Source: Stictocephala bisonia (Eukaryota; Arthropoda; Insecta; Hemiptera; Membracidae). From it: a stretch of DNA of 64,000 nt. Position 1 is the first letter of the stretch. Each line of letters opens with the position of its first letter. The notes below the pieces were generated by a model. That model was not told where the DNA came from and did not search any database. It worked only from the letters and a program-made list of their open reading frames with translations. Both the position numbers and the translations under genes were made by a program. Positions 3,582 to 49,149 of the stretch are shown here, in pieces. The stretch spans positions 1 to 64,000 of the forward strand of contig JAQJVL010002727.1 of assembly GCA_035578905.1 (NCBI GenBank), given 5' to 3'.

Positions 3582-6456
3582 AGTTTAAAAAACGTATTAT
3601 GACTTTTAGGTCATGTGATATATAAATTAACTCCCTACATAATATAAATGCCACCAATAATAGTTTGGTAGTTAAATTATTAAATATTTGTTCAATTAAA
3701 GCTCAAAGAAAAACTAATGACTAAATGCACTTTTAAATACAATCGTTCCAAGCACTATCACAAGGGATCAAATTAAGTTGATTTTGTGGAAAATACTACT
3801 TAAAAATTAAAATGTTCATATTACAATTGAGTCAAAATTGCACAAAAACCCTCCATCTAGCTCTTCCACAGAAATAATTAAAGATGAAAAACAATGTTCA
3901 GTAGTTACAATTTATTTAAAATTGTGTTTGGTTAAATTATGACTTGTCATCATTCACCATAAAGAACAGTAACATAAGCTCAAAATAAATTTAAATTAGT
4001 TTGTATTGTTTAAATTAGCTTATATTATTTATTAATCTTAAAAACTAAAATTGAGTGAAAAACTGCATACCAATTGTAGTCTTCCCATCAAAACTCACGA
4101 AACTTATCCTTTGACTACTCCTTTAGCAAAGTGAATTAATAAGTTTCATGCTCTGACCGAGTCTCTCATAGCCACGCTCATTATAATTTGAAAAAAGAGC
4201 TTATTTTCATAATCTTACTCCAAGTATTAAGCCTAATATTTATAAAATTCTCAAAATGTTAATGTAATTAATGTTAATGTCAAAATGTACCTGGTACATC
4301 ATGCACTCTGCGCTCGAGAGTGCATTTTGAGGTACTGAGTACGTCGTAGGATTTTTGTTAATTGTAATCAAACATTGTAAGAATCAATATTGTACATTAT
4401 ATCATTGTAAAGCTACGATTCTGAAGTATCAAATACATATAACTATGTTTGCTTAATACAAACAGCTGACCGTATTAAGAATACAAACAATAATACCGCA
4501 ATACAAACAAATGTAAAACCGCACAGGATCAAGCAGACAGACTGTCCGCTGTTTACATTTGCTCATAATGTCATAATGTTGTTGTTTACGTCTCATTCGT
4601 TTGATTTTTGAGAGATTAGCTTATTTGTTATAAAAATCATTTTGGACAGTTTTAACTATAGTACAATGTAAATGTTGAACTGTAATGGACTGTACAGTTA
4701 TAAGTTCTTATTTCCAACTTGTTATTTTTAAGATTTAGAAGATTTATTTGAAACTGTCAAAATTTAGTGTAATTTTATCTTAAAACTTAAGTTTAAGTGC
4801 TATTAAACTTTTAAAAAAGCTAATACAAAACATAAAAAATCATATGCGTTGAGGTATCAACATAAAAAGAAATAAACATGTTGAAGTGTTAAAAAGAAGC
4901 ACTTAAAATATCAATGATAATACTTCCACTGAGAAATTTATCTTATACTTAAAAAAAGGTGATCTCATGAGGTTTTAAGACACTAATCAATAAGCGCTTC
5001 ACGTACAGCAAACATGAAATTAGTGCATAACATTTGTTGAAAAGTTTATTGAATATAAATGTATTTTTAATTTAAAAACTAAACATTTCACTCAATTCTC
5101 TATCTCTCTCTGCCTGTTTTCAAAAAAATAATTATGGCTGAAGAATTCTCCACCAAAAAATCTTCCAATATTAGTTCTAACATAAAATAAGTACACAGCA
5201 GCACATAGTATTATACTGATACTGAACAAAATGAGTAAGTTACGAAGTAGTAGGTACATAAATCCATTTGCACAGCCGCTCGTAGAATCAACAGTGCCAC
5301 GATCACAAATAAATGTTATCACATAGAATTATGTTTCCAAAGCTTTATTTGGAACAGGCCAAAGGCAAGAGGCAATGTTAGTAATATATACAATCTTTAC
5401 AGAAGGAATAATGAACAATATGAACTTACAACCTAATACATTATTTACACGCAAAAAATGAAAGGTTAACTTAAGACTTGTTGACAACTATATTAAAAAC
5501 TACCAACAAGTGTTTAATTTTCTATACTCAAATTGTTACTTATATAGCAATCAGAAATATATTTAAAACTTTACAGCATTTATTTATAGTCAGTCTTAAA
5601 ATTGCTTAAGTACAAAGAATACAATTCCAAGGAATTTTAGATAAGTACCCCATCATAATGAATATAAAACAAGAATACAGAGATAAAAATTGGTATGAAT
5701 GGCATGAATCTAAAAGTTTTAGTTAAAAAAAACGTATACAGAACAATAATTAACTAACCCTAAAAAAACATTTGCTATTCATAACCATAAATATATATTT
5801 TACTGTACATCAATAAAAACATACAAGTTAATATAATCAGGTTCACAACTTAGGGTTAGATAACTGTCAAGTCTTACCCATTTTCCCTTTAATATGTAAA
5901 TGCACTCTCTAATACATATAGAACATTAGCAAACAAATAGAAGTAAGAATCCAATTCTAGCTTGATTAATACACAACTGAATCATAATTTTTAACGTACA
6001 GTACTTGTTTCTGTCAAGACATCCATGCTTAATCATACAATATGGATTTGGAATATGTTACAACTTCAGCTTTAAGGGATTAGAGTATAAATATATGTAA
6101 TGTTGAGAGGAAATGTGTAAGCTTTCATTAATACCAAAACCCAACACAAAAATACAAAGTAAGGAAAGGAACGACTAAAACAAGAACAACAAAAGTGGAT
6201 TTTAATTTGTTTTTCTTACAAGTAGAAAATATTTTCTACATTATATATTCCAATGAAACTCTACTGGCAACTTAAAAAAAAAAAAATAAGGGCTCATAAA
6301 TAAATTTTTGATATATGTTTGTTATGAACATCAAATAGTTTGCTGATTTTTCCGTGATTAACAATTCATGAGCTTAAGCTTTGAAGCTATATAAAACATT
6401 GCCAACAATATTTGTTCGAATCTATCACTAATTAATTGTTCCTATGTGAGATGGAG
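3582..6456. other. Downstream and probable 3' UTR region of the LRR gene
   Basis: AT-rich sequence. The part adjacent to 6457 is expected to be the 3' UTR of the minus-strand LRR gene. Several minus-strand AATAAA hexamers exist (for example near 5580 and 5345), but none can be chosen as the cleavage signal by eye. A 76-codon minus-strand frame at 5322-5092 contains a hydrophobic stretch but has no convincing splice acceptor and is not called as coding. No other gene is seen. Confidence 0.4.
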
Positions 6457-6713
6457 TCAGACAATGAGAGTATCGACAGATTTGGCGTTTTTGTTCTTGG
6501 CTGGCCGGCGATGATCTTCAACTGAATTTTGTTTTCTCCGACCTTTGCGCCACCAGCAGAATATGACCAGGCAAGCCAGCAGCAGTGATCCCCCTACAGC
6601 ACCCATTACAAAGTAGCTGACAGACGTGGGAGGTGGTTTCACATTGAGACAGGTTTTGAACACTTCCACTTCCTTCGACAGGTTCATGTTGCAGCCCACC
6701 AAGTCTGGGTCGA
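6457..6713 (-). CDS. LRR membrane protein, last coding exon (TM and tail)
   Basis: The acceptor is the AG at 6715-6714, preceded by a pyrimidine-rich stretch. The exon starts with TC, which completes the codon begun by the final G of exon 16689-16497 (GTC, Val). Two cysteines (GCN and KTC) belong to the membrane-proximal C-terminal cap. A proline-rich linker (KPPPTS) leads to a helix of about 21 hydrophobic residues starting at YFVMGAVGG. WWRKGRRK follows as a stop-transfer signal, giving an extracellular N-terminus. The frame ends at a stop at 6459-6457. An in-frame TTG upstream of the acceptor is not the start. Confidence 0.75.
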
Positions 6714-18273: not shown

Positions 18274-18279
18274 AACCAA
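18274..18279. repeat. Target-site duplication, left (AACCAA)
   Basis: AACCAA immediately precedes the left terminus AGTAGTGAAAAG of the palindromic element and is repeated exactly at 30346-30351. The preceding and following bases differ, so the duplication is 6 bp. Confidence 0.7.
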
Positions 18280-18363
18280 AGTAGTGAAAAGATGAGGATA
18301 ATGCCGTCAAAAAACAGGATTTCTGCGTCAAATTGACCTTTGGACCCACTTTTCTGGCCTCTG

Positions 18364-18418
18364 ATTGGTCGAGAGCGGTCACGTGACTTTTCCAAGATGG
18401 CGGCGCCCATTTCCCGCC
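18364..18418. promoter_or_regulatory. Promoter-like motif cluster in left arm
   Basis: Within 55 bp are ATTGG (inverted CCAAT, 18364-18368), the palindrome GTCACGTGAC (18378-18387, USF/bHLH-type E-box), AAGATGGCGGC (18394-18404, YY1/Pho-like) and TTTCCCGCC (18410-18418, E2F-like). A second GCCCGCCAAA follows near 18450. It lies about 85 bp inside the element's terminus and is mirrored at 30207-30261. The motif matches are exact; function is inferred. Confidence 0.45.
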
Positions 18419-18634
18419 AAATTTTCTAACCTCACTTTTCCTAACCTCAAATTGCCCGCCAAATTCCCAAATTTCCCACGCTTTTCCCGGAATTCCCCAA
18501 AATTCCCGATTTTCCCCCAAATTCCCGATTTTCCCGAAATTACCTTACTTTTTCCCCAATTTTCCCGATTTTCCTCCAAATTCCCAAATTTCCCTCCAAA
18601 TTCCCACATCATACTATATGAAATTCACTGTTAA

Positions 18635-19445
18635 CCTTGTTATAATATATAAAATGCACTTTTTTGTCCAATATGGCGTCTTTTTCCATGTTATACTATA
18701 TAAAATGCACTTTTTTTGTCCAATATGGCGTCTTTCTCTTGTTATACTATATAAAATGAACTTTTTTGTCCAATATGACGTCTTTTTCCATGTTATACTA
18801 TATAAAATGCACTTTTTTGTCCAATATGGCGTCTTTCTCTTGTTATACTATATAAAATGAACTTTTTTGTTCAATATGACGTCTTTTTCCATGTTATACT
18901 ATATAAAATGCACTTTTTTGTCCAATATGGCGTCTTTCTCTTGTTATACTATATAAAATGAACTTTTTTTGTCCAATATGGCATCTTTTTCCATGTTATA
19001 CTATATAAAATGAACTTTTTTTGTCCAATATGGCATCTTTTTCCATGTTATACTATATAAAATGCACTTTTTTGTTCAATATGACGTCTTTTTCCATGTT
19101 ATACTATATAAAATGCACTTTTGTCCAATATGGCATCTTTTTCCATGTTATACTATATAAAATGCACTTTTTTTGTCCAATATGGCATCTTTTTCCATGT
19201 TATACTATATAAAATGCACTTTTTTTGTCCAATATGGCATCTTTTTCCATGTTATACTATATAAAATGCACTTTTTTTGTCCAATATGGCATCTTTTTCC
19301 ATGTTATACTATATAAAATGCACTTTTTTGTCCAATATGGCGTCTTTTTCCATGTTATACTATATAAACTTCACTTTTTTGTCCAATATGATGCCTTTTT
19401 CCATGTTATACTATATAAAATTCACTTTTTTGTCCAATATGACGT
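18635..19445. repeat. 51-bp tandem array, left arm, 16 units
   Basis: Each unit contains TTATACTATATAAAATGCAC, a T run, GTCCAATATGGCGTC and TTTTTCCATG. Variants alternate TTTTTCCATG with TTTCTCTTG, and GCAC with GAAC. Every unit carries TATATAAAA, a consensus-like TATA box. The unit length explains the overlapping open frames. The mirrored right-arm array has only 11 units. Confidence 0.9.
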
Positions 19446-20960
19446 CTTTCCCTCCTCAAAATTCCCTCCCAAAATTCCTCATCCAATATGGCGACCTTTC
19501 CCTTCGGGTACTTCCGGCGACCGTCGGCTACCTTCGTACACTCTTAGCCTATGATGCACACGTCGTCTGCTGGTCGGGCGCGCATGCGCATGGACTTGCT
19601 ACTCTGTGGATTATTTCATATATACACTATAACAAATTAATATTTCATACACTATAATAAAATTAATATTTCATATACTCTATGTGCTCGACCCGATCGT
19701 AGCGCACCTGGTGGCAAAACTTAGCGCATCCTTTCGGAACATGGCGCCTTCGGAAGGGAAGTCCCCGGTGGTAATTCCCCTTCTCAAATTCGGTCTTTAT
19801 ACTATATAAAATACACTCTTAACCTTTCTCATACTATATAAAATGCTAAAGATGGCGGTCATTTACATATGTACTATATAAAATGCTTTCGTGTACTTCC
19901 GGCGACCGTCGGCTACCTTCGTACACGTCGTCTGCTGGTCTGGCGCACACCCAAATGCCACGCTCTGATTGGTTACCTCCCTACTTTACAAGTAATCTTT
20001 CTCACACATACTGTTAGACTACTTATTTAATTTTTCTCAACTTTTTAATAAATACACAGTTAACATACGCTCTTACCTTCGGACACTCATCCATGGCTTC
20101 CTACACTGTTACATATACTTATCTATCGAATCACAGATCATCCTCAAGCCCCTACTTAACACTCTAGGCAACCCGCAATACACGTTTTAATTAAAAATCA
20201 AGGGACAGCTATTATTTATATTAATTATTTACTTCTTTTTTTATTTTTATTTAATTGTTACATACGAGGCCAACTGGTGTACGGTGACCGGGCTTTATCG
20301 CTGTTATCACATCACCTGACCTCAAAGGTCAACCCGTGGCTGTTATCAATCCCACAAGCATTGTTTTACATCCCGTATGAACGATGTACGAGTCTTTGTT
20401 ACTAACTAGATGAATGAGTGTAGTCTTTGTTACTAACTAAGGCTGCTGGACCCTTTGATATATCATCTATTAACAACACAGTAGTCAGGGAAACTATGAC
20501 ATGGAACCCAAACCCCTTAAAATTTAGTTAAAATGTCCATAAATAGGGTTATTTGTGTACAAAATATGTTATAATTCCCTAAATGCAATAAAATGCAGTG
20601 TCATAACAACGATATTTGTCCTAAACATTAAAAATTCCTTTAAAATACTCTTATAGAAACCTTTAAAAACTTAGTTTGAGCTCAAAACAACGTACAAAAC
20701 TGATGTAACACTTGTAAATTAATTGTTTAACCTACATAGCTATTTAGTTGACTCCAAACAGTTGGCAAAGTGTAAGTAGCCAATAGGAATAAATTCTCTA
20801 TAATGTTCACATTTTAAGCTTGATTTTAACAAAACCTGATGCTATTGATTCTTTGCACATTAAACAAATAAACGAATAGTTAGTTGAAATGTGTCTATTG
20901 TAGAAACTTTGGTATTAACAGTAAGAAAGTTTGGCTGTAATATACTCGATCAGAAAATGT
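19446..20960. other. Unique part of left arm with an old family S repeat
   Basis: This part holds CG-richer sequence (19490-19760 and 19880-19960, with the CTTCCGGCGACCGTCGGCTA word twice). Three further ACTATATAAAATGC words at 19798-19880 are dispersed relatives of the 51-bp unit. At 20380-20520 is a diverged copy of the family S repeat (GTGTAGTC..GTTACTAACTA). No gene is seen. Mirrored at 27920-29430. Confidence 0.6.
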
Positions 20961-23890
20961 ATATACACCACTCCCAAAGACCGAAACACATGGAGAACCT
21001 AGAACACACAACATTCTTGATAGATCACCTTCCTATTCATCACATAAGACCCTTGATTATCCATCACCTATCCCTAAGACATCTGACTGACCAACTACCC
21101 ACCCAATATTCTAGACTAAACACACTCTACATACAAGACCTTTGAATGACCATCTACCTACCCTACACACACACAGTACTCTCGATAGACCACTCACCTC
21201 CCCATCACATAAGACATCTGACTAACCATCTACCCACCTAATATACTAGACTAACCACACTCTACACATAGTCCTCTTGACAGACCACGCACCCCTCTCG
21301 ACACATAATACATTTGACCACCTACCCACCTAATATACTAGACTAACCACACTCTACATACAAGACTTTTGATTGACCATCTACCCACTCAACACACACA
21401 GACCCTCGATAGACCACCCACCTCCCCAACACATAAGACATCTGACTAACCATCTACCCACCTAATATACTAGACTAACCACACCTTACATACAAGACCT
21501 TTGATTGACCACCTACCTACCCAACACACACAGTACCCTCGATAGGCCACACACCTTCCCAACACATAACACATCCGACTGACCATCTACCCACCTAATA
21601 TACTAGACTAACCACACCTTAAATACAAGACCTTTGATTGACCACCTACCTACCCAACACACACAGTACCCTCGATAGGCCACCCACCTTCCCAACACAT
21701 AAGACATCTGACTGACCACCTACCTACTTAATATACTAGACTAACCACACTCTACATACAAGACTTTTGATTGACCACTCACCTACTAAACACACAGACG
21801 TTTGATTAAACACCCACATACTCAACACAGAGTCATGTTGATAGACCAACCCACCTTCCCCAAACATAAAACCTTTGATAGACCAACCACACACTCTACA
21901 GACATAACTTAAAATACCATCACACTACCAAAAAGGCAGTCTCTTTATAGACCCCCATCTACTCAATACATGAGACACTTGGTTAACCACTCGCCTACCC
22001 AACACATAGTCCTCTTGATAGACCACTCACCCCTCCCGACACATAATACATTTGACAGACCACTTACTTAACATACAAGACTGACCATACACTCTACATC
22101 GAAGACGTTTGATTATCCACTCACCTACTCAATACATACAAAACACTTGTTTGATCACAACAATTTAACAAACACAACTGACGATTGACATTCCACATTA
22201 CCAAAGCATATGAAGGACCACCTACCAAACATACGTACCACACAACATAAAATCATGACAACAGTCCACCCACCTACTCAACACACAACACCTCTGATAG
22301 ATAATCCACCTAAACATTACATAAAACCTTACATTGACACCCAACATTCATGGATAACCTACCTACCAAACATACGAATTGACCACATTACCAAAGCATA
22401 TGAAGGACCACCTACCAAACATACGTACCACACACCATAAAATCATGACTTAACAGTCCACCCACCTACTCAACACACAACACCTCTGATAGATAATCCA
22501 CCTAAACATTACATAAAACCTTTGATTGACACCCAAAATTGACCACATTACCAAAGCATATGATGGACCACCTACCAAACATACATACCACACACCATAA
22601 AATCATGACTTAACAGTCCAGCCACCTACTCAACACACAACACCTCTGATAGATAATCCACCTAAACATTACATAAAACCTTTGATTGACACCCAAAATT
22701 GACCACATTACCAAAGCATATGAAGGACCACCTACCAAACATACGTACCACACACCATAAAATCATGACTTAACAGTCCACCCACCTACTCAACACACAA
22801 CACCTCTGATAGATAATCCACCTAAACATTACATAAAACCTTACATTGACACCCAACATTCATGGATAACCTACCTACCAAACATACGAATTGACCACAT
22901 TACCAAAGCATATGAAGGACCACCTACCAAACATACGTACCACACACCATAAAATCATGACTTAACAGTCCACCCACCTACTCAACACACAACACCTCTG
23001 ATAGACAATCCACCTAAACATTACATAAAACCTTTGATTGACACCCAAAATTGACCACATTACCAAAGCATGTGAAGGACCACCTACCAAACATACGTAC
23101 CACACACCATAAAATCATGACTTAACAGTCCACCCACCTACTCAACACACAACACCTCTGATAGATAATCCACCTAAACATTACATAAAACCTTTGATTG
23201 ACACCCAAAATTGACCACATTACCAAAGCATGTGAAGGACCACCTACCAAACATACGTACCACACACCATAAAATCATGACTTAACAGTCCACCCACCTA
23301 CTCAACACACAACACCTCTGATAGACAATCCACCTAAACATTACATAAAACCTTTGATTGACACCCAAAATTGTCCACATTACCAAAGCATGTGAAGGAC
23401 CACCTACCAAACACACGTACCACACACCATAAAATCATGACTTAACAGTCCACCCACCTACTCAACACACAACACCTCTGATAGATAATCCACCTAAACA
23501 TTACATAAAACCTTACATTGACACCCAACATTCATGGATGACCTACCTACCAAACATACGAATAGACCACATTACCAAAGCATATGAAGGACCAATCACA
23601 AACATACGTACCACACACCATAAAATCATGACTTAACAGTCCACCCACCTACTCAACACACAACACCTCTGATAGATAATCCACCTAACCATTACATAAA
23701 ACCTTACATTGACACCCAACATTCATGGATGACCTACCTACCAAACATACGAATAGACCACATTCCCAAAGTATATGAAGGACCACCTACCATACATACG
23801 TACCACACACCATAAAATCATGACTTAACAGTCCACCCGCCTACCTCTGCACACACAATTCCTTAGGACACACCCTAAACATACCACTCA
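20960..23890. repeat. AC-rich complex tandem array, left arm
   Basis: The outer part (to about 22140) is built from degenerate units of TTGATTGACCACCTACCTAC type with ACACAC and CTCGATAG words. The inner part (22190-23830) is a clean array with alternating periods of about 160 and 190 bp. The longer unit carries an extra CATGGATAACCTACCTACC segment. CCAAAGCAT occurs at 22201, 22391, 22551, 22711 and 22902. There are no genes; the open frames are by-products. Mirrored at about 24990-27920. Confidence 0.85.
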
Positions 23891-24124
23891 TCCTACAGAC
23901 AAAACTCCTAGAGAACTACCCATCCACCATAAAAACAGTATTGCTTCATTTAATCATGTTTTAAAATAACATTATTACACTGTAAGATAGGTTTAATACA
24001 GCTAAAGACCTAAAGTGTTACCTAAAATTCTGTTTTATATGAGAGCCGTTGGTGGAAAACATCCAAACTAAACATAGAAAATAGGAATCAGCTAGTAGTT
24101 TCATAGAAATTCTACTATACAACT

Positions 24125-24370
24125 AAAAAAATATTCGAAAAAATTAGGTTTAAAAACAATGAACACAGAAAAAATTAGGTTTAAAAACAATGAACACAGA
24201 AAAAATTAGGTTTAAAAACAATGAGAACAGAAAAAATTAGATTAAAAAAATGAACACAGAAAAAATTAGGTTAAAAAAAATGAACACAGAAAAAGTTAGG
24301 TTAAAAAAATGAACACAGAAAAAGTTAGGTTAAAAAAAATAAACATAGAAAAAGTTAGGTTAGCAAACAT
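24125..24370. repeat. A-rich 30-bp array at the inner end of the left arm
   Basis: Seven to eight units of GAACACAGAAAAAATTAGGTT with a variable A run, shortening toward the loop. Mirrored at 24500-24740. Confidence 0.8.
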
Positions 24371-24379
24371 CAGAAAAGT

Positions 24380-24493
24380 TCAGTTAAAATGAACAAAACT
24401 CATAAAATGGAACATTTTTTGACTTTTGTTAATTTTAACAACTTTTCGGAAAAGTAAGGATAGCAATCAACCTTTCGGTTGTTTGCTAGACTT
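24380..24493. other. Loop of the giant palindrome
   Basis: About 114 bp lie between the arms. It contains its own imperfect dyad: AAAAGTAAGGATAGCAATCAAC (24450-24471 region) pairs, with three mismatches, with GTTGTTTGCTAGACTTACTT (24478-24497). The true centre is therefore a short hairpin rather than unrelated spacer. Confidence 0.6.
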
Positions 24494-27400
24494 ACTTTTC
24501 TGATGTTTGCTAACCTAACTTTTTCTATGTTTATTTTTTTTAACCTAACTTTTTCTGTGTTCATTTTTTTAACCTTACTTTTTCTGTGTTCATTTTTTTT
24601 AACCTAATTTTTTCTGTGTTCATTTTTTTAATCTAATTTTTTCTGTTCTCATTGTTTTTAAACCTAATTTTTTCTGTGTTCATTGTTTTTAAACCTAATT
24701 TTTTCTGTGTTCATTGTTTTTAAACCTAATTTTTTCGAATATTTTTTTAGTTGTATAGTAGAATTTCTATGAAACTACTAGCTGATTCCTATTTTCTATG
24801 TTTAGTTTGGATGTTTTCCACCAACGGCTCTCATATAAAACAGAATTTTAGGTAACACTTTAGGTCTTTAGCTATATTAAACCTATCTTACAGTGTAATA
24901 ATGTTATTTTAAAACATGATTAAATGAATCAATACTGTTTTTATGGTGGATGGGTAGTTCTCTAGGAGTTTTGTCTGTAGGATGAGTGGTATGTTTAGGG
25001 TGTGTCCTAAGGAATTGTGTGTGCAGAGGTAGGTGGGTGGACTGTTAAGTCATGATTTTATGGTGTGTGGTACGTATGTATGGTAGGTGGTCCTTCATAT
25101 ACTTTGGGAATGTGGTCTATTCGTATGTTTGGTAGGTAGGTCATCCATGAATGTTGGGTGTCAATGTAAGGTTTTATGTAATGGTTAGGTGGATTATCTA
25201 TCAGAGGTGTTGTGTGTTGAGTAGGTGGGTGGACTGTTAAGTCATGATTTTATGGTGTGTGGTACGTATGTTTGTGATTGGTCCTTCATATGCTTTGGTA
25301 ATGTGGTCTATTCGTATGTTTGGTAGGTAGGTCATCCATGAATGTTGGGTGTCAATGTAAGGTTTTATGTAATGTTTAGGTGGATTATCTATCAGAGGTG
25401 TTGTGTGTTGAGTAGGTGGGTGGACTGTTAAGTCATGATTTTATGGTGTGTGGTACGTGTGTTTGGTAGGTGGTCCTTCACATGCTTTGGTAATGTGGAC
25501 AATTTTGGGTGTCAATCAAAGGTTTTATGTAATGTTTAGGTGGATTGTCTATCAGAGGTGTTGTGTGTTGAGTAGGTGGGTGGACTGTTAAGTCATGATT
25601 TTATGGTGTGTGGTACGTATGTTTGGTAGGTGGTCCTTCACATGCTTTGGTAATGTGGTCAATTTTGGGTGTCAATCAAAGGTTTTATGTAATGTTTAGG
25701 TGGATTATCTATCAGAGGTGTTGTGTGTTGAGTAGGTGGGTGGACTGTTAAGTCATGATTTTATGGTGTGTGGTACGTATGTTTGGTAGGTGGTCCTTCA
25801 CATGCTTTGGTAATGTGGTCAATTTTGGGTGTCAATCAAAGGTTTTATGTAATGTTTAGGTGGATTGTCTATCAGAGGTGTTGTGTGTTGAGTAGGTGGG
25901 TGGACTGTTAAGTCATGATTTTATGGTGTGTGGTACGTATGTTTGGTAGGTGGTCCTTCATATGCTTTGGTAATGTGGTCAATTCGTATGTTTGGTAGGT
26001 AGGTTATCCATGAATGTTGGGTGTCAATGTAAGGTTTTATGTAATGTTTAGGTGGATTATCTATCAGAGGTGTTGTGTGTTGAGTAGGTGGGTGGACTGT
26101 TAAGTCATGATTTTATGGTGTGTGGTACGTATGTTTGGTAGGTGGTCCTTCATATGCTTTGGTAATGTGGTCAATTTTGGGTGTCAATCAAAGGTTTTAT
26201 GTAATGTTTAGGTGGATTATCTATCAGAGGTGTTGTGTGTTGAGTAGGTGGCTGGACTGTTAAGTCATGATTTTATGGTGTGTGGTATGTATGTTTGGTA
26301 GGTGGTCCGTCATATGCTTTGGTAATGTGGTCAATTTTGGGTGTCAATCAAAGGTTTTATGTAATGTTTAGGTGGATTATCTATCAGAGGTGTTGTGTGT
26401 TGAGTAGGTGGGTGGACTGTTAAGTCATGATTTTATGGTGTGTGGTACGTATGTTTGGTAGGTGGTCCTTCATATGCTTTGGTAATGTGGTCAATTCGTA
26501 TGTTTGGTAGGTAGGTTATCCATGAATGTTGGGTGTCAATGTAAGGTTTTATGTAATGTTTAGGTGGATTATCTATCAGAGGTGTTGTGTGTTGAGTAGG
26601 TGGGTGGACTGTTAAGTCATGATTTTATGGTGTGTGGTACGTATGTTTGGTAGGTGGTCCTTCATATGCTTTGGTAATGTGGAGTGTCAATCGACAGTTG
26701 TGTTTGTTAAATTGTTGTGATCAAACAAGTGTTTTGTGTGTATTGAGTAGGTGAGTGGATAATCAAACGTCTTCGATGTAGAGTGTATGGTCAGTCTTGT
26801 ATGTTAAGTAAGTGGTCTGTCAAATGTATTATGTGTCGGGAGGGGTGAGTGGTCTATCAAGAGGACTATGTGTTGGGTAGGCGAGTGGTTAACCAAGTGT
26901 CTCACGTATTGAGTAGATGGGGGTCTATAAAGAGACTGCCTTTTTGGTAGTGTGATGGTATTTTAAGTTATGTCTGTAGAGTGTGTGGTTGGTCTATCAA
27001 AGGTTTTATGTTTGGGGAAGGTGGGTTGGTCTATCAACATGACTCTGTGTTGAGTATGTGGGTGTTTAATCAAACGTCTGTGTGTTTAGTAGGTGAGTGG
27101 TCAATCAAAAGTCTTGTATGTAGAGTGTGGTTAGTCTAGTATATTAAGTAGGTAGGTGGTCAGTCAGATGTCTTATGTGTTGGGAAGGTGGGTGGCCTAT
27201 CGAGGGTACTGTGTGTGTTGGGTAGGTAGGTGGTCAATCAAAGGTCTTGTATTTAAGGTGTGGTTAGTCTAGTATATTAGGTGGGTAGATGGTCAGTCGG
27301 ATGTGTTATGTGTTGGGAAGGTGTGTGGCCTATCGAGGGTACTGTGTGTGTTGGGTAGGTAGGTGGTCAATCAAAGGTCTTGTATGTAAGGTGTGGTTAG

Positions 27401-30345
27401 TCTAGTATATTAGGTGGGTAGATGGTTAGTCAGATGTCTTATGTGTTGGGGAGGTGGGTGGTCTATCGAGGGTCTGTGTGTGTTGAGTGGGTAGATGGTC
27501 AATCAAAAGTCTTGTATGTAGAGTGTGGTTAGTCTAGTATATTAGGTGGGTAGGTGGTCAAATGTATTATGTGTCGAGAGGGGTGCGTGGTCTGTCAAGA
27601 GGACTATGTGTAGAGTGTGGTTAGTCTAGTATATTAGGTGGGTAGATGGTTAGTCAGATGTCTTATGTGATGGGGAGGTGAGTGGTCTATCGAGAGTACT
27701 GTGTGTGTGTGTAGGGTAGGTAGATGGTCATTCAAAGGTCTTGTATGTAGAGTGTGTTTAGTCTAGAATATTGGGTGGGTAGTTGGTCAGTCAGATGTCT
27801 TAGGGATAGGTGATGGATAATCAAGGGTCTTATGTGATGAATAGGAAGGTGATCTATCAAGAATGTTGTGTGTTCTAGGTTCTCCATGTGTTTCGGTCTT
27901 TGGGAGTGGTGTATATACATTTTCTGATCGAGTATATTACAGCCAAACTTTCTTACTGTTAATACCAAAGTTTCTACAATAGACACATTTCAACTAACTA
28001 TTCGTTTATTTGTTTAATGTGCAAAGAATCAATAGCATCAGGTTTTGTTAAAATCAAGCTTAAAATGTGAACATTATAGAGAATTTATTCCTATTGGCTA
28101 CTTACACTTTGCCAACTGTTTGGAGTCAACTAAATAGCTATGTAGGTTAAACAATTAATTTACAAGTGTTACATCAGTTTTGTACGTTGTTTTGAGCTCA
28201 AACTAAGTTTTTAAAGGTTTCTATAAGAGTATTTTAAAGGAATTTTTAATGTTTAGGACAAATATCGTTGTTATGACACTGCATTTTATTGCATTTAGGG
28301 AATTATAACATATTTTGTACACAAATAACCCTATTTATGGACATTTTAACTAAATTTTAAGGGGTTTGGGTTCCATGTCATAGTTTCCCTGACTACTGTG
28401 TTGTTAATAGATGATATATCAAAGGGTCCAGCAGCCTTAGTTAGTAACAAAGACTACACTCATTCATCTAGTTAGTAACAAAGACTCGTACATCGTTCAT
28501 ACGGGATGTAAAACAATGCTTGTGGGATTGATAACAGCCACGGGTTGACCTTTGAGGTCAGGTGATGTGATAACAGCGATAAAGCCCGGTCACCGTACAC
28601 CAGTTGGCCTCGTATGTAACAATTAAATAAAAATAAAAAAAGAAGTAAATAATTAATATAAATAATAGCTGTCCCTTGATTTTTAATTAAAACGTGTATT
28701 GCGGGTTGCCTAGAGTGTTAAGTAGGGGCTTGAGGATGATCTGTGATTCGATAGATAAGTATATGTAACAGTGTAGGAAGCCATGGATGAGTGTCCGAAG
28801 GTAAGAGCGTATGTTAACTGTGTATTTATTAAAAAGTTGAGAAAAATTAAATAAGTAGTCTAACAGTATGTGTGAGAAAGATTACTTGTAAAGTAGGGAG
28901 GTAACCAATCAGAGCGTGGCATTTGGGTGTGCGCCAGACCAGCAGACGACGTGTACGAAGGTAGCCGACGGTCGCCGGAAGTACACGAAAGCATTTTATA
29001 TAGTACATATGTAAATGACCGCCATCTTTAGCATTTTATATAGTATGAGAAAGGTTAAGAGTGTATTTTATATAGTATAAAGACCGAATTTGAGAAGGGG
29101 AATTACCACCGGGGACTTCCCTTCCGAAGGCGCCATGTTCCGAAAGGATGCGCTAAGTTTTGCCACCAGGTGCGCTACGATCGGGTCGAGCACATAGAGT
29201 ATATGAAATATTAATTTTATTATAGTGTATGAAATATTAATTTGTTATAGTGTATATATGAAATAATCCACAGAGTAGCAAGTCCATGCGCATGCGCGCC
29301 CGACCAGCAGACGACGTGTGCATCATAGGCTAAGAGTGTACGAAGGTAGCCGACGGTCGCCGGAAGTACCCGAAGGGAAAGGTCGCCATATTGGATGAGG
29401 AATTTTGGGAGGGAATTTTGAGGAGGGAAAGACGTCATATTGGACAAAAAAGTGAATTTTATATAGTATAACATGGAAAAAGGCATCATATTGGACAAAA
29501 AAGTGAAGTTTATATAGTATAACATGGAAAAAGACGCCATATTGGACAAAAAAGTGCATTTTATATAGTATAACATGGAAAAAGATGCCATATTGGACAA
29601 AAAAAGTGCATTTTATATAGTATAACATGGAAAAAGATGCCATATTGGACAAAAAAAGTGCATTTTATATAGTATAACATGGAAAAAGATGCCATATTGG
29701 ACAAAAAAAGTGCATTTTATATAGTATAACATGGAAAAAGATGCCATATTGGACAAAAAAGTGCATTTTATATAGTATAACATGGAAAAAGACGTCATAT
29801 TGAACAAAAAAGTGCATTTTATATAGTATAACATGGAAAAAGATGCCATATTGGACAAAAAAAGTTCATTTTATATAGTATAACATGGAAAAAGATGCCA
29901 TATTGGACAAAAAAAGTTCATTTTATATAGTATAACAAGAGAAAGACGCCATATTGGACAAAAAAGTGCATTTTATATATTATAACAAGGTTAACAGTGA
30001 ATTACATATAGTATGATGTGGGAATTTGGAGGGAAATTTGGGAATTTGGAGGAAAATCGGGAAAATTGGGGAAAAAGTAAGGTAATTTCGGGAAAATCGG
30101 GAATTTGGGGGAAAATCGGGAATTTTGGGGAATTCCGGGAAAAGCGTGGGAAATTTGGGAATTTGGCGGGCAATTTGAGGTTAGGAAAAGTGAGGTTAGA
30201 AAATTTGGCGGGAAATGGGCGCCGCCATCTTGGAAAAGTCACGTGACCGCTCTCGACCAATCAGAGGCCAGAAAAGTGGGTCCAAAGGTCAATTTGACGC
30301 AGAAATCCTGTTTTTTGACGGCATTATCCTCATCTTTTCACTACT
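24494..30345. repeat. Right arm of the giant palindrome
   Basis: Reverse complement of 18280-24379. In order it contains the A-rich array (24500-24740), the AC-rich array (24990-27920), the unique part (27920-29430), the 51-bp array with 11 units (29430-29990) and the promoter-like cluster (30207-30261). It ends at CACTACT, 30345. Confidence 0.85.
30207..30261. promoter_or_regulatory. Promoter-like motif cluster in right arm
   Basis: Mirror of 18364-18418: GGCGGGAAA (30207-30215), GCCGCCATCTT (30221-30231), GTCACGTGAC (30238-30247) and CCAAT (30257-30261). It lies about 165 bp from the donor of LRR exon 30765-30424. Confidence 0.45.
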
Positions 30346-30351
30346 AACCAA
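30346..30351. repeat. Target-site duplication, right (AACCAA)
   Basis: An exact copy of 18274-18279, directly after the right terminus CACTACT. The inferred empty site joins AATAAG, AACCAA and CCATCC. Confidence 0.7.
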
Positions 30352-30423
30352 CCATCCATTTCATGTGATTCACATTTTAATAATACTTCAAAATTCAATA
30401 TGAGATTAATAGAGATAACTGAC

Positions 30424-30765
30424 CTTGAGGCTAGGTAGAACGCCGAGGGTAGGGACTTTGGTGAGGTCGCATTTGGCAAGAGAGAGTACAGCAAGATTGT
30501 AGGCAGCACTCAGCGTGAGGTTATCTCCTAAATCATCGTTCTGTGCTAGGTAGAGTGTACGTAAGGGTAACGGCAGGTCTGCAGGCAGGTTGCGTACTGA
30601 GTTACGGCTAAGATCCAACACCTCAAGACGAGTCAGCTCACTGAATGTACCAGCTTCTATTTTGGTGATGAAATTGTCCGTTAAGTACAGCAGTTTCAGA
30701 TCAGGATAATCTCGAAAGCTCGAGTTTGTCAAAACTCGAATTCGATTTTTGGCTGCATAAAGGAC
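30424..30765 (-). CDS. LRR membrane protein, second recovered exon (LRR core)
   Basis: The acceptor is TTTCAG|GTCCTT (AG at 30767-30766) after a T-rich tract; the donor is AAG|GTCAGT at 30424/30423. Both junctions are phase 0, giving 114 codons. The repeats follow LxxLxLxxN spacing: VLYAAKNRI, LKLLYLTDNFI, LEVLDLSRNSV, LRTLYLAQND and LAVLSLAKCDL, ending LPSLK. Sequons NSS and NLT are present. An in-frame ATG upstream of the acceptor is intronic and not the start. The donor is only about 70 bp from the right end of the palindromic insertion. Confidence 0.85.
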
Positions 30766-31355
30766 CTGAAACAAATTTAAAAAAAAAGTTGTATTTCCTT
30801 TATAACATTTTTTTAAATGAAGTAAAAAATGCCATTGGTGTAAAAATACTAAAAAAAGAGGCTAAAACAACTATCTTTCATCCATACAAACTCCTCTTAA
30901 ATATGATATATTTTTAGTAGCACAAACATTTAATTTATAAAGAGTTTAATATTTTTAGATTGTTTAATGCTATTTATAAGATATAAACATAAAATTTATT
31001 GGCTCTAAATTCTCAGGAAGGACCTATTGCCCCTAAATTCACCCTTTTTAAATCATTTTAAAAATTTACAAAATAAAGATATTTTTTATTATTATTATCT
31101 TCTCTTATCGGATCATCACAGAATACCATGTAGTCTGTTATTAACTGAGACCAACTTATTCTTGAATAAGACTATTTATTGAAGTGACTAGTCTATTTTA
31201 CGATATTATATTTTGTATATTTCTTTTAGTATGATTTTGTATCAAATCATTCAAAACCACGTTAACATTACAATCGTTATTTTCCCTTTAACTTTGATCA
31301 ATATATTGTTTTATATAGGTCTTAATTGTGAGAATAAGACTATTTCTTGAAGCGA

Positions 31356-45290: not shown

Positions 45291-45440
45291 AGTAGGAAGT
45301 GTTATTTTTCCCACACAAGTAAAACCATTCGCCCATCTGAGTGGTTTCTGCATACAAGCTCATAAAATCGTTCCGTAAACAACGTTTGCTTCGCTGCGTA
45401 AATATTTCCTTGAGAAGGCCATCTGTGAATGAGGCGTCTG

Positions 45441-48400
45441 GATTGTATAATTGTTAATTGGGCATGTCATGAGGTTTGTTACATCATAACAAACACTAAA
45501 TACAGCGCACGTTCAGTGGTGAGGATTTGTATTGTTAATTGGGCATGTCATGAGGTTTGTTACATCATAACAAACACTAAATACAGCACACGTTCAGTGG
45601 TGAGGATTTGTATTGTTAATTGGGCATGTCATGAAGTTTGTTACATCATAACAAACACTAAATACAGCACACGTTCAGTGGTGAGGATTTGTATTGTTAA
45701 TTGTGCATGTCATGAGGTTTGTTACATCATAACAAACACTAAATACAGGACACGTTTAGTGGTGAGTATTTGTATTGTTAATTGGGCATGTCATGAGGTT
45801 TGTTACATCATAACAAACACTAAATACAGGACACGTTCAGTGGTGAGGATTTGTATTGTTAATTGTGCATGTCATGAGGTTTGTTACATCATAACAAACA
45901 CTAAATACAGGACACGTTCAGTGGTGAGTATTTGTATTGTTAATTGGGCATGTCATGAGGTTTGTTACATCATAACAAACACTAAATACAGGACACGTTC
46001 AGTGGTGAGTATTTGTATTGTTAATTGTGCATGTCATGAGGTTTGTTACATCATAACAAACACTAAATACAGGACACGTTCAGTGGTGAGTATTTGTATT
46101 GTTAATTGGGCATGTCATGAGGTTTGTTACATCATAACAAACACTAAATACAGGACACGTTCAGTGGTGAGGATTTGTATTGTTAATTGGGCATGTCATG
46201 AGGTTTGTTACATCATAACAAACACTAAATACAGCACACGTTCAGTGGTGAGGATTTGTATTGTTAATTGGGCATGTCATGAGGTTTGTTACATCATAAC
46301 AAACACTAAATACAGCACACGTTCAGTGGTGAGGATTTGTATTGTTAATTGTGCATGTCATGAGGTTTGTTACATCATAACAAACACTAAATACAGCACA
46401 CGTTCAGTGGTGAGGATTTGTATTGTTAATTGGGCATGTCATGAGGTTTGTTACATCATAACAAACACTAAATACAGCACACGTTCAGTGGTGAGGATTT
46501 GTATTGTTAATTGGGCATGTCATGAGGTTTGTTACATCATAACAAACACTAAATACAGGACACGTTCAGTGGTGAGGATTTGTATTGTTAATTGTGCATG
46601 TCATGAGGTTTGTTACATCATAACAAACACTAAATACAGGACAAGTTCAGTGGTGAGTATTTGTATTGTTAATTGGGCATGTCATGAGGTTTGTTACATC
46701 ATAACAAACACTAAATACAGGACACGTTCAGTGGTGAGTACTTGTATTGTTAATTGGGCATGTCATGAGGTTTGTTACATCATAACAAACACTAAATACA
46801 GCACACGTTCAGTGGTGAGGATTTGTATTGTTAATTGGGCATGTCATGAGGTTTGTTACATCATAACAAACACTAAATACAGCACACGTTCAGTGGTGAG
46901 GATTTGTATTGTTAATTGGGCATGTCATGAGGTTTGTTACATCATAACAAACACTAAATACAGCACACGTTCAGTGGTGAGGATCTGTATTGTTAATTGG
47001 ACATGTCATGAGGTTTGTTACATCATAACAAACACTAAATACAGCACACGTTCAGTGGTGAGGATTTGTATTGTTAATTGGGCATGTCATGAGGTTTGTT
47101 ACATCATAACAAACACTAAATACAGCACACGTTCAGTGGTGAGGATTTGTATTGTTAATTGGGCATGTCATGAGGTTTGTTACATCATAACAAACACTAA
47201 ATACAGCACACGTTCAGTGGTGAGGATCTGTATTGTTAATTGTGCATGTCATGAGGTTTGTTACATCATAACAAACACTAAATACAGGACACGTTCAGTG
47301 GTGAGTATTTGTATTGTGAATTGGGCATGTCATGAGGTTTGTTACATCATAACAAACACTAAATACAGGACACGTTCAGTGGTGAGTATTTGTATTGTTA
47401 ATTGGGCATGTCATGAGGTTTGTTACATCATAACAAACACTAAATACAGGACACGTTCAGTGGTGAGTATTTGTATTGTTAATTGGGGATGTCATGAGGT
47501 TTGTTACATCATAACAAACACTAAATACAGGACACGTTCAGTGGTGAGTATTTGTATTGTTAATTGGGCATGTCATGAGGTTTGTTACATCATAACAAAC
47601 ACTAAATACAGGACACGTTCAGTGGTGAGTATTTGTATTGTTAATTGGGCATGTCATGAGGTTTGTTACATCATAACAAACACTAAATACAGCACACGTT
47701 CAGTGGTGAGGATTTGTATTGTTAATTGGGCATGTCATGAGGTTTGTTACATCATAACAAACACTAAATACAGGACACGTTCAGTGGTGAGTATTTGTAT
47801 TGTTAATTGGGCATGTCATGAGGTTTGTTACATCATAACAAACACTAAATACAGGACACGTTCAGTGGTGAGTATTTGTATTGTTAATTGGGCGTGTCAT
47901 GAGGTTTGTTACATCATAACAAACATTAAATACAGGACAAGTTCAGTGGTGAGTATTTGTATTGTTAATTGGGCGTGTCATGAAGTTTGTTACATCATAA
48001 CAAACATTAAATACAGGACAAGTTCAGTGGTGAGTATTTGTATTGTTAATTGGGCGTGTCATGAAGTTTGTTACATCATAACAAACATTAAATACAGGAC
48101 AAGTTCAGTGGTGAGTATTTGTATTGTTAATTGGGCGTGTCATGAGGTTTGTTACATCATAACAAACATTAAATACAGGACAAGTTCAGTGGTGAGTATT
48201 TGTATTGTTAATTGGGCGTGTCATGAAGTTTGTTACATCATAACAAACATTAAATACAGGACAAGTTCAGTGGTGAGTATTTGTATTGTTAATTGGGCGT
48301 GTCATGAAGTTTGTTACATCATAACAAACATTAAATACAGGACAAGTTCAGTGGTGAGTATTTGTATTGTTAATTGGGCGTGTCATGAGGTTTGTTACAT

Positions 48401-49095
48401 CATAACAAACATTAAATACAGGACAAGTTCAGTGGTGAGTATTTGTATTGTTAATTGGGCGTGTCATGAGGTTTGTTACATCATAACAAACATTAAATAC
48501 AGGACAAGTTCAGTGGTGAGTATTTGTATTGTTAATTGGGCGTGTCATGAAGTTTGTTACATCATAACAAACATTAAATACAGGACAAGTTCAGTGGTGA
48601 GTATTTGTATTGTTAATTGGGCGTGTCATGAAGTTTGTTACATCATAACAAACATTAAATACAGGACAAGTTCAGTGGTGAGTATTTGTATTGTTAATTG
48701 GGCGTGTCATGAGGTTTGTTACATCATAACAAACATTAAATACAGGACAAGTTCAGTGGTGAGTATTTGTATTGTTAATTGGGCGTGTCATGAAGTTTGT
48801 TACATCATAACAAACATTAAATACAGGACAAGTTCAGTGGTGAGTATTTGTATTGTTAATTGGGCGTGTCATGAGGTTTGTTTCATCATAACAAACATTA
48901 AATACAGGACAAGTTCAGTGGTGAGTATTTGTATTGTTAATTGGGCGTGTCATGAAGTTTGTTACATCATAACAAACATTAAATACAGGACAAGTTCAGT
49001 GGTGAGTATTTGTATTGTTAATTGGGCGTGTCATGAGGTTTGTTTCATCATAACAAACATTAAATACAGCACACGTTCAGTGGTGAGGATTTTTA
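45441..49095 (+). repeat. 81-bp satellite array, about 45 units
   Basis: The unit begins ATTGTTAATTGGGCATGTCA and ends CGTTCAGTGGTGAGGATTTG plus T. Each unit carries GTTTGTTA and TAACAAAC separated by 5 bases, a perfect 8-bp dyad. Three variants occur: GCACACG/GAGG, GGACACG/GAGT, and GGACAAG/GAGT with AACATTAAA and GGCGTG. The third forms a block of about 15 units at 47885-49060. Since 81 is a multiple of three, one plus-strand frame (45429-49148, 1239 codons, 27-residue period) has no stop. No promoter or splice context is evident, so I treat it as a satellite. Confidence 0.95.
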
Positions 49096-49149
49096 TTCTT
49101 GTATTCTTTGAAAATGTACTTCGGTCTACATATTACAAGCACTTGTGAA

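Follow-up and report, generated by a model that had tools for sequence, protein, structure and literature searches.

The near-perfect palindrome at positions 18280-30345 of a 64,000-nt stretch of the Stictocephala bisonia genome (contig JAQJVL010002727.1 of assembly GCA_035578905.1, positions 1 to 64,000 of the forward strand; this whole stretch is called the window below) is one copy of a large family in which a palindrome is the usual architecture and whose fuller members carry a polymerase gene in each arm. The family is Maverick-derived rather than Maverick, because two defining features of Mavericks (Polintons), the integrase and the ATPase, were not found in it. We consider it probable that the window element belongs, as a copy lacking the polymerase, to this palindromic Maverick/Polinton-derived family, which would be replicated by protein priming and fold-back copying of itself and integrated by an integrase supplied in trans. 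The first-pass annotation of the window had described inverted arms of about 6 kb, a 114-bp loop, the termini AGTAGTG/CACTACT and a flanking AACCAA repeat, and both the coordinates and the alignment agree with it on all of these; its picture of a single aborted Polinton end gives way to that of the family.

Copies, ends and target site duplications

The genome searched was the 1.68-Gb assembly of 11,105 contigs. Several of the best 40 scored matches to the terminal 361 bp of the element (of 2,590 candidates) are inverted pairs 7-15 kb apart. Ten inverted pairs were fetched, as were central or partial sequences of C3476, C1947, C4018, C3311 and C4036, and with the window copy they constitute our sample of 16 copies; C1548, which runs into a contig edge, was excluded, and the comparison of C4018 was restricted to about 660 nt around its centre. 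Inverted arms extend throughout the part read in 15 of the 16 copies, the exception being C10038, in which one arm is mostly lost. Genome-wide, a 20-nt core of the central loop has 165 forward and 172 reverse matches (337 in all, against 0 + 0 for the reversed control), and the end pattern AGTAGATAAAAACTG has 72 + 71 matches (control, 5 + 5).

All 12 copies examined end in AGTAG, and an exact 6-bp target site duplication (TSD) lies outside AGTAG...CTACT in 11 of the 12 (nine of the ten fetched pairs, the window and C4036, whose duplication is GATATC). In C77 the two sequences match at five of six bases (AACAGG/AATAGG), and the duplication of C2593 falls within a TG repeat and is less informative. 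The further copies that the first-pass annotation had suggested looking for are present, with the same type of ends and 6-bp duplications. Mavericks are described with 6-bp TSDs, (AG)3 or (AGT)2 end motifs and, in vertebrates, terminal inverted repeats (TIRs) of 46-1,447 bp (PMC8097293, in excerpt). Judged by sequence, the ends and duplications of the family are of Maverick/Polinton type, and the link to Mavericks that had been drawn from the window copy is borne out both by this match and by the polymerase of its relatives.

Alignment of the two arms of the window palindrome over 5,846 columns shows 11 substitutions, beside three 2-nt indels and a 254-nt indel (18646-18899) within a 51-bp tandem array. 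Arms as long as these cannot have arisen by chance. A one-off assembly artefact is also an unlikely origin, as the same architecture, each time with its own 6-bp duplication, is found at other sites of the assembly.

Gene content and the central loop

The arms of C4, C77, C7791 and C2593 are each about 5 kb longer and contain a long open reading frame (ORF). These four fetched polymerase-bearing members are inverted dimers of about 13.5-15 kb within 6-bp TSDs, and their arms run in the order AGTAG end, array of the 51-bp type, polymerase gene, non-coding block with arrays and central structured loop. Among the best 40 polymerase matches genome-wide (of 6,632 candidates), 38 are without a stop; the 40 comprise 13 convergent same-contig pairs and 14 single genes, with no tandem pair, and none of the 26 genes of the convergent pairs contains a stop. 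Eight of the convergent pairs are on contigs covered by the loop-core matches listed, and seven of these eight have the exact core between their two genes; for the eighth, C514, no exact core is among the matches listed. Pairwise comparison of three open polymerase copies gave nonsynonymous divergence (dN) of 0.008-0.034 and synonymous divergence (dS) of 0.085-0.31; the ratio of about 0.10 indicates that the polymerase has been under purifying selection. The first-pass annotation saw nothing but arrays and promoter-like DNA in the arms; this holds for the window copy, in which both arms lack the polymerase gene with identical junctions and no ORF of at least 150 aa from a start codon is found inside the palindrome, but not for the family.

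By sequence and predicted structure, the family polymerase is a Polinton/adintovirus-type B-family DNA polymerase (PolB) with the phi29 fold. It has 692 homologs at E <= 0.001 among 5,230 candidates; DNA_pol_B_2 is present in some of the at least 120 listed, including P0003 by scan, and the nearest named PolBs among the homologs listed, at 53-54% identity, are from Lycorma delicatula. Pfam itself returned only a sub-threshold Endonuclease_7 match for the family polymerase. The structural model (pLDDT 88) has phi29 polymerase as its top fold match in the PDB (E 8.6e-18), and its top matches in the viral fold library BFVD are polymerases labelled densovirus and then adintovirus, with bidensovirus and bidnavirus-like labels also present. 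Across 58 aligned polymerases, D330, E332 and D715 are invariant and T-D-T-D-S at 973-977 is nearly so; we take these to be exonuclease and palm motifs. In the tree, the family polymerase clusters with P0001-P0009, among others, away from two IMG/VR adinto-like contigs and from the polymerase of C85, a Maverick-like element of the same genome. Its identity is 46% over 421 residues with the C85 protein and 38-39% over 1,116-1,118 aligned residues with the two contigs, one of which (L051) encodes an integrase and an A32-type ATPase. The N-terminal PolB region has been proposed to be the terminal protein in relatives (PMC4061559, in excerpt).

Integrase, ATPase and capsid queries from C85 and L051 were compared with 27 family pieces and the window element at E <= 1e-3. 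Neither the Maverick-type integrase nor the packaging ATPase matched any of these 28 sequences, and for each protein the two queries did match each other, which serves as a control; no capsid match was obtained in the 28 either, in what is a weak test, as the two capsid queries failed to match each other. Apart from PolB and a nested Helitron, no long ORF was seen in the arms among unspliced ORFs. Pfam scans of ten arm ORFs from C77 and C4 returned no hit above the cut-off, and no SF3 helicase, parvovirus-like capsid, Rep/NS1 nickase or transposase was recognised among the arm ORFs, including these ten Pfam-scanned ones. The larger members C3476, C1947 and C4018 were considered as the missing integrase-bearing version and rejected, being palindromes with no recognisable integrase in the parts read.

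Maverick-type integrases do occur elsewhere in the genome (129 scored matches of 4,521 candidates). C85:1450900-1468800 (L053-L056) is a Maverick/adintovirus-like element with AGTAGT ends and the TSD ACCAAG, and has genes for an integrase with a weak chromodomain match, an A32-type ATPase, a phospholipase A2, a double-jelly-roll capsid and a BIR protein. Its TIRs of about 5 kb, 99.9-100% identical, enclose the integrase and BIR-domain genes and far exceed the vertebrate Maverick range of 46-1,447 bp (PMC8097293, in excerpt). C85 was rejected as a complete autonomous Maverick, because across its four pieces the polymerase match is limited to residues 710-1129. The match to this truncated gene begins at L054:3652 and the right TIR at about L054:3655, so that the left end, copied in inverted orientation, seems to have taken the place of the remainder of the polymerase gene.

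The same loop, 112-130 nt long and in some copies eroded, was recovered from the centre of 10 of the 11 copies tested, with none from C10038. With DNA parameters and the inner stem included, the minimum-energy fold is a three-way junction in nine of the ten loops, in which a long stem carries two hairpins, B and C, of 75 and 52 nt in the window copy; the loops of C77 and C4 are partly eroded. The terminal repeat of adeno-associated virus (AAV) shares this T-shaped three-way topology. Alone, the window loop folds at -26.7 kcal/mol, against -9.0 for shuffled sequences (z -7.8, 0/200 as good). Mean column identity among seven aligned loops is 95%, so the structure is backed by conservation rather than by covariation. 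On these predicted folds, the loop is a conserved structured element and not a leftover spacer. The loop occurs in both orientations (6 and 4 of the ten folded copies; 165 and 172 genome-wide), which we rejected as flip/flop evidence of hairpin transfer, because insertion of a palindrome in either direction yields both anyway.

Proposed fold-back copying and its rivals

In the aligned parts, the substitutions between the two arms number 3/6,674 in C2593, 11/7,451 in C77, 12/6,309 in C487, 12/6,306 in C1762, 12/5,497 in the window, 27/6,556 in C4, 34/4,873 in C510, 31/3,751 in C4374 and 49/5,709 in C3676; these nine of eleven copies thus differ by 0.04-0.86%. In segment P the mean difference is 8.9% between copies and 0.2% within them, and for 16 of the 20 arms the strictly closest sequence is the sister arm of the same copy. 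The loss of the polymerase gene with the same junctions in both window arms, and a frame break shared by the two arms of C4, fit the copying of one arm from the other. C4036 has the family ends, an exact TSD and outer arms identical over 1,680/1,680 bp, but a different centre. Its arm ends just past the polymerase gene, at a native GTAAC-N5-GTTAC that is present in all six arms of other copies inspected, and its centre consists of a fold-back with a 5-nt loop, about 58 nt back, and a second fold around a 19-nt loop. From its sequence, C4036 is apparently a fossil of snap-back synthesis, in which a growing 3' end bent back and was extended along its own strand as far as the terminus; because this new fold-back centre lies inside normal ends, with identical outer arms and an exact TSD, the palindrome most likely preceded integration. 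The snap-back origin that the first-pass annotation had offered as a possibility gains support from C4036 and from the arm identity within copies.

The preferred explanation can be set out as a cycle. The polymerase, through its putative N-terminal terminal-protein region, would prime at the AGTAG end of an extrachromosomal linear DNA. At the centre, the hairpins (rarely another small inverted repeat) would allow the 3' end to turn back and use its own arm as template as far as the terminus, such that both arms derive from one template, and a Maverick integrase acting in trans would insert the duplex and generate the 6-bp TSD. Whatever one arm had lost by deletion, for instance the polymerase gene, would be missing from the other arm after the next round, giving copies like that in the window. 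Priming at AGTAG, regular fold-back at the loop and integration in trans are steps that we infer, and C85-like elements could be the source of the integrase. More tentatively, and with somewhat less than even confidence, we suggest that the family may be a new type of selfish DNA, a mobile element with protein priming and a hairpin end, whose working form is a half-length duplex of one folded strand, with an open end (AGTAG) bearing the terminal protein and a parvovirus-like T-shaped hairpin telomere at the other. The integrated palindrome of 12-15 kb would be this form opened out, each round would rebuild one arm from the other so that the two polymerase genes stay alike, and integration would be parasitic on the Maverick integrase.

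Several observations weigh against protein-primed fold-back copying with integration in trans. C77, C7791 and C2593 each have only one arm with an uninterrupted frame of 1,153 aa, and in C4 the frame is broken in both arms at the same point, leaving no open arm. Two copies are outliers in arm identity: C7791 (298/7,117), one arm of which resembles uncorrected sequence, and C10038 (42/671), with a deleted arm and no loop recovered. The differences are 0.42% within and 1.07% between copies for segment T, and 0.51% and 3.8% for segment N, and only 7 and 12 of 22 arms, respectively, are strictly nearest their own sister. Many of the remaining arms are ties, but in segment T C4, C10038 and the left arm of C4374, and in segment N C7791, C10038 and the left arms of the window and C3676, are nearer another copy. 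Assembly polishing may also partly inflate arm identity, and the inner 351 nt of C4036 contain 7 mismatches in a simple ungapped count. As for the loop, a third small hairpin forms in C4374, and when the stem is left out the window loop is predicted to form three successive hairpins. C85 and the family have little in common at their ends beyond AGTAG, and C85's own polymerase is truncated. Action of an integrase on the family ends is itself a matter of inference, and no extrachromosomal form was seen.

Post-insertion gene conversion could likewise have homogenised the arms, as in Y-chromosome palindromes, after ordinary insertion by a Maverick integrase and with no regular fold-back copying. 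Long palindromes undergo gene conversion in other genomes, and copies with more arm differences, such as C3676 (49/5,709) and C4374 (31/3,751), accord with such a history, which we nevertheless regard as unlikely. Conversion does not produce the first palindrome, and the new centre of C4036 between perfectly matching outer arms (1,680/1,680), normal ends and an exact TSD places palindrome formation most likely before integration; conversion may add to arm identity, yet it leaves C4036 unexplained. An assembly or long-read foldback artefact is hardly credible: although such artefacts are known (PMC12870357, in excerpt) and one C7791 arm looks uncorrected, exact TSDs occur at different sites in 11 of 12 copies, arms differ within copies and the loop sequence is conserved.

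Very improbable, too, is a foldback-type TIR transposon (FB, Galileo/P or MULE) that captured the polymerase as cargo. FB has a TSD of 9 bp; moreover, the polymerase here is of Polinton/adintovirus type and under purifying selection, and the arm ORFs, ten of them searched with Pfam, include no recognisable transposase. The family does resemble Drosophila FB and Galileo in having long TIRs with internal tandem arrays and a short middle, but Galileo has TIRs of 18-1,250 bp, a 7-bp instead of a 6-bp TSD and a P-type transposase (PMC3573991, in excerpt), and the ends of the family are of the Maverick (AGT)2 type (PMC8097293, in excerpt).

Compared with known systems, the family resembles Mavericks/Polintons (polintoviruses, adintoviruses) in its type-B polymerase of the protein-primed kind, AGT-repeat ends and 6-bp TSD. 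It differs from them in that no integrase or ATPase was detected, in being wholly palindromic and in its conserved structured centre; nor was a capsid gene recognised, in the weak test described above. Parvoviruses and AAV replicate by rolling hairpins, a logic of fold-back self-priming, and their terminal hairpins resemble the predicted T-shaped junction with its two small hairpins on a long stem; in the family, however, the junction is central in an integrated inverted dimer rather than at a genome end, and no nickase gene was recognised among the arm ORFs, of which ten were scanned. Bidnaviruses possess a parvovirus-type helicase, and their genome is not palindromic. They are similar to the family in using a polintovirus-derived polymerase as replicase, but their inverted repeats form no parvovirus hairpins (PMC4061559, in excerpt). 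The arms of the family, at about 6-7.5 kb, also contrast with the 46-1,447 bp of vertebrate Maverick TIRs (PMC8097293, in excerpt). Titles and the opening lines of abstracts in the literature searched disclosed no palindromic or polymerase-only Maverick family, and Repbase or subscription journals may describe one.

Three replication strategies that are normally treated separately are linked by the family: protein priming of linear DNA, as in Polintons and adenoviruses, hairpin telomeres, as in parvoviruses, and the strategy of foldback transposons. It also makes the origin of long or gene-bearing TIRs testable, for C85, with its integrase inside TIRs of about 5 kb and its polymerase cut at the right one, looks as if caught part-way. 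If both arms start out identical, their divergence provides a clock for each insertion, as in pairs of long terminal repeats. Our results further suggest that a very large, almost perfect palindrome in an assembly can be a mobile element with hundreds of copies.

Window features and side observations

The features of the palindrome and its flanks are listed in Table 1.

Table 1. Features of the window palindrome and its target site duplications
Feature	Position	Strand	Remarks
Target site duplication AACCAA, left copy	18274..18279	+	6-bp pattern repeated in other copies
Left arm, 6,100 nt	18280..24379	+	Reverse complement of right arm
Left terminus AGTAGTG	18280..18286	+	Family ends AGTAG; Maverick (AGT)2-type end, motif in PMC8097293 (in excerpt)
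51-bp tandem array, 15.9 copies, consensus with ACTATATAAAATG and CCAATATGGCG	18638..19449	+	
133-bp tandem array	21315..21796	+	
160/192-bp tandem array	22193..23844	+	
31-bp array adjoining loop	24137..24362	+	
Predicted T-shaped three-way junction	24359..24514	+	Stem 24359-24372/24501-24514, hairpin B 24373-24447, hairpin C 24449-24500
Asymmetric central loop, 114 nt, family-conserved	24380..24493	+	Core motif in 337 genome copies, reversed control 0
Right arm, 5,852 nt	24494..30345	-	
31-bp array, right-arm copy	24511..24736	-	
160/192-bp array, right-arm copy	25029..26682	-	
133-bp array, right-arm copy	27079..27560	-	
51/52-bp array, right-arm copy, 10.9 copies	29428..29987	-	About 5 fewer copies than on the left
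Right terminus CACTACT	30339..30345	-	
Target site duplication AACCAA, right copy	30346..30351	+	

A TATA-like box and the motif AAnATGGCG, which resembles a YY1/Pho site, recur through the 51-bp arrays of the window (18638-19449 and 29428-29987), and these may be promoter arrays. In the fuller members, the non-coding block downstream of PolB (L048, about 5400-6500) appears by eye to be more conserved between copies at the DNA level than the polymerase gene; a second gene within this 1.3-kb block was considered and dismissed, as two small ORFs there have no Pfam match above cut-off. Also downstream of PolB, and antisense to it, a stretch resembling U1 small nuclear RNA is present in all three arms scanned (L048:5341-5537(-), L046:5513-5709(-) and L038:1758-1954(+)). 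Its Rfam scores of 36-42 are below the gathering threshold of 69.5, and the end that pairs with the 5' splice site is retained; it is possibly a captured U1 fragment.

The left arm of C7791 (L035) is noisy and frame-broken, opposite an open arm, and calls for caution in arm comparisons near contig ends. In C4374, an ORF of 928 aa with a Helitron_like_N domain (L039:1332-4115(+)) is present in the left arm only, so this Helitron was probably inserted after the palindrome had formed.

Just past the right TSD of the window element, a leucine-rich-repeat exon (30406-30861(-)) was noted by eye from the translation, and the palindrome would thus adjoin a leucine-rich-repeat gene or sit in its intron. 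The sole ORF of at least 150 aa in the whole window, of 1,239 aa at 45429-49148, was rejected as a gene: a homology search gave nothing at E <= 0.001, and the stretch is a minisatellite with 45 copies of an 81-bp unit, open as a reading frame because 81 is a multiple of 3.

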